Assembly: GCF_003086695.1 (NCBI RefSeq)
Contig: NZ_CP025999.1
Location: 608,820-672,819, forward strand
Direction of reading: 5' to 3'
Length of the DNA: 64,000 nt
From: Stenotrophomonas sp. SAU14A_NAIMI4_8
GTDB lineage: Bacteria > Pseudomonadota > Gammaproteobacteria > Xanthomonadales > Xanthomonadaceae
Shown here: piece after piece, positions 9,970 to 10,053 of the stretch
How positions within the stretch are numbered: the first letter of the stretch is position 1
Layout: each line of letters begins with the position of its first letter
The notes under the pieces: model-generated
Database searches by the model: none
Told to the model about the DNA's origin: nothing
Seen by the model: the letters and a program-made list of their open reading frames with translations, nothing else
Made by a program: the position numbers and the translations under genes

Positions 9970-10053
9970 AAAAAAAGACCCGGCAGAGGGAGGGATCTGC
10001 CGGGTCCGGATTGCATGGGGGGAGGGACCCATGCAATGAGCGTGGGCGTAACG
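9970..10053 (-). ncRNA. phasin 3' UTR: terminator and twin-loop sRNA candidate
   Basis: Read on the minus strand, two perfect hairpins follow the phasin stop codon within 80 nt. The first pairs ATTGCATGGG with CCCATGCAAT (10010-10037, 10 bp). The second pairs GACCCGGCAGA with TCTGCCGGGTC (9977-10006, 11 bp) and is followed by seven T (9976-9970), a Rho-independent terminator. Both loops are the same eight bases, TCCCTCCC in the RNA sense. C-rich loops of this kind in sRNAs such as Xanthomonas sX13 bind Shine-Dalgarno regions. The segment therefore serves as the phasin terminator and may be released as an sRNA; the second role is inference. Confidence 0.6.

Follow-up and report, generated by a model that had tools for sequence, protein, structure and literature searches.

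The 3' end of a phasin gene in the analyzed window (the whole stretch of DNA under study, 64 kb long) carries a twin hairpin with C-rich loops, and within the genus Stenotrophomonas the same RNA occurs in some lineages with and in others without its parent ORF, with the leader block and the loops being kept. From the comparison of these loci we infer that the phasin was lost while the RNA was kept in place, since phasin together with RNA is the common state within and outside the genus. Where the phasin was not found, the element would represent a stand-alone small-RNA-like gene behind the same leader block. It is a known kind of RNA in a new variant and probably acts as a small RNA that is made when carbon is stored and whose C-loops pair with G-rich Shine-Dalgarno sites of few mRNAs. 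The 3' ends of mRNAs are considered a source of small-RNA genes; to our knowledge, natural series showing an mRNA 3' end before and after its conversion into a small-RNA gene are uncommon, and if our reading is true, this locus would provide one, from an mRNA tail to an independent small-RNA gene.

The phasin 3' UTR harbors a twin hairpin with identical loops

Stem 1 (ATTGCATGGG/CCCATGCAAT, 10037-10028 with 10019-10010, minus strand) consists of 10 perfect base pairs, encloses the loop TCCCTCCC (10027-10020) and begins 16 nt behind the phasin stop codon (10056-10054). Stem 2 (GACCCGGCAGA/TCTGCCGGGTC, 10006-9996 with 9987-9977, minus strand) is unrelated in sequence and has 11 perfect pairs, or 12 with an added G-U; its loop at 9995-9988 is again TCCCTCCC, that is UCCCUCCC as in stem 1, and a run of seven T residues follows immediately at 9976-9970 (Table 1). 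The initial annotation had described the two perfect stems of 10 and 11 bp, their identical loops, the distance to the stop codon and the T run, all of which proved exact to the base. It had also named the upstream gene as a phasin, in agreement with a profile search in which the product matched PF09361 (42.2 bits vs. a cut-off of 24.9). A longer phasin frame opens at 10458.

Table 1. Features at the queD-phasin locus of the window.
Feature	Position	Strand	Description	Evidence or remark
Hairpin 2 and T run	9970..10007	(-)	intrinsic terminator	sequence, fold, terminator scan, stem 2 covariation
Hairpin 1	10010..10037	(-)	10 bp, loop UCCCUCCC at 10027-10020	sequence, fold, stem 1 covariation in 39 chosen rows
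Phasin ORF	10054..10407	(-)	given from conserved start	PF09361; homologues start at this Met or upstream
Leader block TTGCAATGC...TATGCTGCATTGCA	10428..10463	(-)	upstream of phasin; putative promoter/operator	
Terminator-like hairpin	10473..10495	(-)	between queD and phasin	terminator scan
queD-type gene (6-pyruvoyl tetrahydropterin synthase family)	10522..10884	(-)	constant upstream neighbour	PF01242, 131 bits

The minimum free energy of the element was -39.9 kcal/mol, compared to a mean of -21.1 for shuffled sequences (z -6.3; none of 200 shuffles was as low), and both C-rich loops were unpaired in the predicted ensemble. A scripted scan of the 64-kb window detected eight terminator-like hairpins, among which the 8-nt loop was unique to the phasin tail, the other seven having loops of 3-5 nt. 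No sigma-70-like site was obtained in a scan of positions 9900-10600; the leader block falls short of the 9-of-12 match and was not called. Just beyond the terminator, at 9926-9948, lies the palindrome GTAGATCCACGCCATGCGTGGAT, which we take to resemble the SMAG repeats of Stenotrophomonas.

Structure and loops are conserved on the phasin strand

By pattern, the twin C-loop form was found behind the phasin in 41 of 49 named loci, all fetched with the phasin profile. A family search added further loci, and 26 of the first 30 showed the form too; these 30 include group g7, which corresponds to Xanthomonas as judged from its phasin (a 97% match to an X. sacchari protein). Covariation was analyzed in 39 chosen distinct rows, from which near-duplicates and most forms lacking a C-rich terminator loop were excluded, so that the alignment describes the twin type. 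In these rows 94.2% of the cells were paired and double changes were observed at 13 of 21 pairs, which was matched by none of 500 shuffles; controls with a slid structure yielded 1-3 such pairs. Further pair types were at chance level (23 vs. a shuffled mean of 22.5 in the 39 rows). At least one loop was exactly UCCCUCCC in 33 of the 39 rows and both loops were in 20, while the stems varied. The selection on the loops that had been postulated from the single sequence, and selection on the structure, are supported by the covariation and by loops that hold across changing stems; the comparison of both stems in related genomes, which had been proposed as a check, revealed a structure that covaries across genera and conserved loops.

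When the stems were extended regardless of strand, wobble cells amounted to 25 G-U and 1 C-A in stem 2 and to 9 G-U and 15 C-A in stem 1. The 16 core pairs contained 20 G-U and no C-A, and the five ragged end pairs outside that count contained 4 and 15, respectively. Given the wobbles of stem 2 and the position of the T run on the phasin strand, the working RNA is most likely the one transcribed from this strand, while stem 1 alone would not decide.

The RNA is retained in genomes in which no phasin was found

Among 91 genomes of the genus, the model R1 matched with at least 63 bits in 87 and the phasin profile matched in 72. Both RNA and phasin were present in 71 genomes, only the RNA in 16, only the phasin in one and neither in three, for two of the latter the assembly is fragmented or contaminated and the R1 match is weak. 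In the phasin-only genome (G483, locus L283) no R1 match was obtained and the stretch of 3' flank that was read is devoid of the twin hairpin. Seventeen phasin-less loci were read, i.e. the 16 of the genus and one of another genus (G053). In all 17, queD is located upstream and followed by a leader-like block and an intact twin hairpin, both loops of which are UCCCUCCC or ACCCUCCC. A strict leader pattern was matched by 16 of the 17, namely all RNA-only loci of the genus but not G053, and by 60 of 78 phasin-bearing loci; it missed the other 18 of these as well as L215. Among pattern-matching loci, the distance from the block to the first C-loop is 21-74 nt in those without a phasin match, compared to 385-418 nt in the named Stenotrophomonas loci among L009-L041. 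The phasin-less junctions differ from each other when inspected by eye: seven run from the block nearly straight into the stem, four loci of one clade retain what appear to be the last phasin codons, and further loci have other spacers.

On a queD tree, six changes are needed to account for the 16 loci and one other-genus locus labelled as phasin-less, four of them being forced by well-supported branches. This tree contains 81 rows and 357 columns of one short gene, with L055 left outside, and by itself cannot separate gain from loss. The window's genome (4.48 Mb, one contig) appears to belong to Stenotrophomonas, as do most of the named loci recovered by the phasin profile and the named rows close to it on this tree. 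One locus on the tree, L033, is titled Bacillus subtilis but sits among Stenotrophomonas and is thus mislabelled or contaminated. At L273 and L278 a separate terminator-like hairpin is present between queD and the leader block, and consequently the twin hairpin is not needed to end queD there.

PhaR was identified in 89 of the 91 genus genomes and a class III PHA synthase (TIGR01836) likewise in 89. Both were kept in 15 of the 16 RNA-only genomes, the exception being G531, which is 76% complete. PF07167 was rejected as a gauge for PHA synthase, as only 11 of the 91 genomes exceeded its cut-off, one of them at full length, whereas TIGR01836 detects the class III enzyme. The sole full class I PhaC_N match among the 91 genomes (191.8 bits) was found in the phasin-less G474 (L286), beside the class III enzyme. 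G080 (L221; 2.4 Mb, 86% complete) gave no match to the phasin profile; behind its queD lie a decayed stretch and a degenerate form of the twin hairpin, with the loops TCCTTT and TCCCTCCT.

A CU-rich motif often precedes phasin terminators in the family

In the family, R1 matched 96 of 198 genomes (E <= 0.001). Of the 123 matches listed, 69 lie at most 900 nt behind a listed phasin, in a count that took in 150 of the 169 phasin genomes, and five strong unlinked matches likewise sit behind a phasin-like ORF. The flanks of 15 other unlinked matches were read as well; five are positioned behind polA, which is the place of sX13, and five behind an Ax21-like outer-membrane gene. In several family genomes (L222, L223, L227, L228, L232 and L211), a single C-loop hairpin and then a terminator lie behind an outer-membrane protein gene named by eye as Ax21-like, perhaps another 3' UTR with a CU-loop.

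Across the class, 16 of 274 genomes were matched by R1, three of which are that of the window itself and two from the same family; matches outside the family were few and weak (at most 44.8 bits). The flanks of 12 of the 15 new class loci were read, and a single locus outside the family (L210) was located by eye behind a phasin-like ORF, without C-loops. Two other loci outside the family, L199 and L206, have sX13-like C-loop hairpins behind an ORF named by eye as polA-like. The accessible part of the sX13 paper places sX13 in the Xanthomonadaceae only (PMC3771888).

A further 100 phasin loci of the family were fetched, of which 15 gave no terminator in the terminator count and 13 gave none in the motif count. 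Behind the resulting 85 further phasins, 8 terminators had a C-loop and 48 had 4-nt loops. A CU-rich motif, taken from a list drawn up from the same loci it was counted on (about ten of them of the twin type), was present at most 80 nt ahead of the terminator in 59 of these 87 phasin loci, compared to 0/87 when that stretch was read on the opposite strand, 3/87 downstream, 2/87 farther down and 3.5% in shuffles. Phasin 3' ends of other genera frequently have a single CU-rich motif ahead of an ordinary terminator, which makes the second C-loop appear derived. In the simplest reading of these sequences, a CU-rich site before an ordinary terminator would be the old state, and the younger form would have arisen by the terminator adopting the same loop.

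Comparison with known small RNAs

No Rfam family reached its threshold in the window or in 19 further loci, and no description of this RNA was found among the open-licence papers listed. As far as described in the accessible text, sX13 (RF02232) belongs to the same bacterial family and shares with the phasin element the C-rich hairpin loops and a predicted pairing with G-rich start regions, but it has three C-loop stems instead of two and lies behind polA instead of behind the phasin gene; its C-loops repress mRNAs with G-rich start regions (PMC3771888). Against RF02232 the phasin element scored 27.6 bits, below the gathering threshold of 50, and the real sX13 of this genome was identified at a separate locus (G000:C1:4345220-4345333, 123.6 bits). 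Based on the score, the number of stems, the position and the separate sX13 locus, membership was rejected. The likeness to sX13 pointed out in the initial annotation thus holds for the design but does not extend to the family.

The RNAs of RF02278 (Betaproteobacteria toxic small RNA; ncS03, ncS05, ncS27 and ncS62) likewise consist of little beyond two CU-loop hairpins, the second being a terminator, and these double-hairpin RNAs of Burkholderia are predicted to cover ribosome sites (PMC5688073). They occur in three to five copies per genome and are classed as independently transcribed, and the accessible part of that paper does not mention phasin (PMC5688073). The phasin element has the two CU-loop hairpins with a terminator as the second one; it scored 21.4 bits at a threshold of 50, so that this is a likeness of design and not membership. 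The other best Rfam matches spanning both hairpins, anti-hemB (RF02837, 25.0 bits, threshold 49.5), 6C (RF01066, 24.9 and 47) and ar14 (RF02344, 27.5 and 58.8), were rejected, all being far below threshold.

MmgR (alpha-r8) of Sinorhizobium is likewise a small RNA connected with phasins and the storage of PHB, but according to the accessible text it is a separate gene that lowers phasin protein (PMC8401924), whereas the phasin element is part of the phasin transcript unit. The match to Rfam suhB/mmgR was 11.8 bits (E 5). With 3'-UTR-derived small RNAs the element shares the location in an mRNA 3' UTR and the use of the mRNA's terminator as its end; unlike these, it would be an independent gene, still preceded by the leader block, in genomes without a phasin match.

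Alternative explanations

That the element has a function beyond termination is held with good confidence. It is rather unlikely that it merely provides a strong transcript end, composed of a terminator and a decay-protecting hairpin, with C-loops that have no pairing function. Hairpin 2 is a textbook terminator, and ordinary terminators close phasin mRNAs at the same place in other genera. However, ordinary terminators have loops of 3-5 nt (the seven others in the window; mostly 4 nt in other genera), both 8-nt loops persist in the 16 genomes without phasin, and L273 and L278 at least possess their own terminator-like hairpin after queD.

A pair of equal, exposed motifs on the same RNA is typical of decoys, and the CU-rich motif dates far back in the family, as might be expected if the loops bound a protein, or acted as a sponge or decoy for one, instead of pairing with mRNA. 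We regard this as improbable, given that the CU-rich sequence is complementary to Shine-Dalgarno cores and that, in the accessible text of two papers, known RNAs with such a shape work through pairing (PMC3771888, PMC5688073). Pairing of the loops with Shine-Dalgarno sequences is, in our estimate, the likely mode of action.

An RNA whose action is confined to cis, with the phasin or queD mRNA as target, would fit the position of the element behind the phasin in most strong R1 matches as well as the effect of MmgR, which in the accessible account lowers phasin protein in Sinorhizobium (PMC8401924). This is nevertheless very improbable: the leaders of phasin and queD in the window show no G-rich Shine-Dalgarno, and 16 genomes keep the RNA although the phasin was not found. 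RsmA/CsrA recognizes GGA in the loops of hairpins, and the C-A cells of stem 1, which outnumber its G-U cells (15 over 9), would turn into wobbles if the plus strand were the RNA; both points agree with an RsmA decoy made of GGGAGGGA loops on the plus strand, supplied by readthrough from the convergent kinase gene. This reading hardly deserves consideration and was disfavoured on the basis of the stem 2 wobbles (25 G-U vs. 1 C-A), the strand of the T run, which is that of the phasin, and the CU motif, which is confined to one side (59/87 vs. 0/87).

A possible link to carbon storage

According to the accessible part of a review, the phasin promoter of Cupriavidus is kept repressed by PhaR up to the point at which PhaR is bound by PHB granules. 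The leader block may correspondingly be a promoter under PhaR that is relieved once PHB granules form, and if it is such a promoter, the RNA would be produced when carbon is stored. It would be freed from the phasin mRNA where the phasin is present and made directly where it is absent. The two C-rich loops are predicted to pair with G-rich Shine-Dalgarno sites and to block translation, presumably of few mRNAs with a TonB-dependent receptor (TIGR01782) as the best candidate, and carbon storage would then lead to less uptake through this receptor. The coupling to carbon storage is slightly favored by us. More tentatively, we propose that the tail RNA is valued by selection above its protein: made from a granule-sensing promoter, the RNA would shut down the receptor on storage, and in several lineages the protein would have been lost and the riboregulator kept as its own gene. 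For Stenotrophomonas and Xanthomonas, the proposed coupling offers a connection of nutrient uptake with PHB storage that is open to testing.

Candidate targets

The initial annotation had proposed a small RNA that represses many mRNAs. The small-RNA reading agrees with the retention of the element in the 16 genomes without phasin, whereas global control is unsupported: GGGAGGGA was not enriched, with 36 sites in the genome (4.48 Mb) vs. 38 for the reversed control, and among the 34 sites outside the element only one is a clean Shine-Dalgarno, UUCCCUGGGGAGGGAGCUUCC-AUG of a TonB-dependent receptor. The target prediction at Shine-Dalgarno regions suggested there hence delivered this one clean site and no wide target set. 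In a scripted screen of the 34 sites, two were marked as coding-like frame starts, the receptor and L298. The latter was rejected as a target, because 13 nt separate the site from its ATG and the opposite strand contains a coding-like frame of 265 codons. L320 was also rejected; an ATG is found 3 nt behind the site, and the frame ends after 24 codons.

The receptor contains a Plug domain and matches TIGR01782 with 513 bits. Its Shine-Dalgarno GGGGAGGGA is the full complement of the loop, and the predicted duplex amounts to -16.3 kcal/mol. Thirty of the 39 orthologues listed at 81% identity or more were read, and GGGAGGGA was intact in all 30 (own included). The 14-nt core UCCCUGGGGAGGGA differs by one letter in one of the 30 rows, while its flanks are variable. 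This core is predicted to fold on itself into a local hairpin that hides the site and costs about 11.5 kcal/mol to open; its conservation may therefore serve the receptor's own leader hairpin, or alternatively sX13. That the receptor is a true target is possible but doubtful. The phasin element would be a second C-loop RNA beside sX13 and could compete with it for the same G-rich sites.

The motif GGAGAGAGAG is the complement of CUCUCUCUCC, the form found in phasin 3' UTRs of other genera. Its presence in some receptor leaders, observed as individual cases, is suggestive. The leaders in question, with a Shine-Dalgarno of the GGAGAGAGAG type, belong to TonB-dependent receptors at L341, L343, L332 and L342, and such leaders occur in the window's own genome and in G028.
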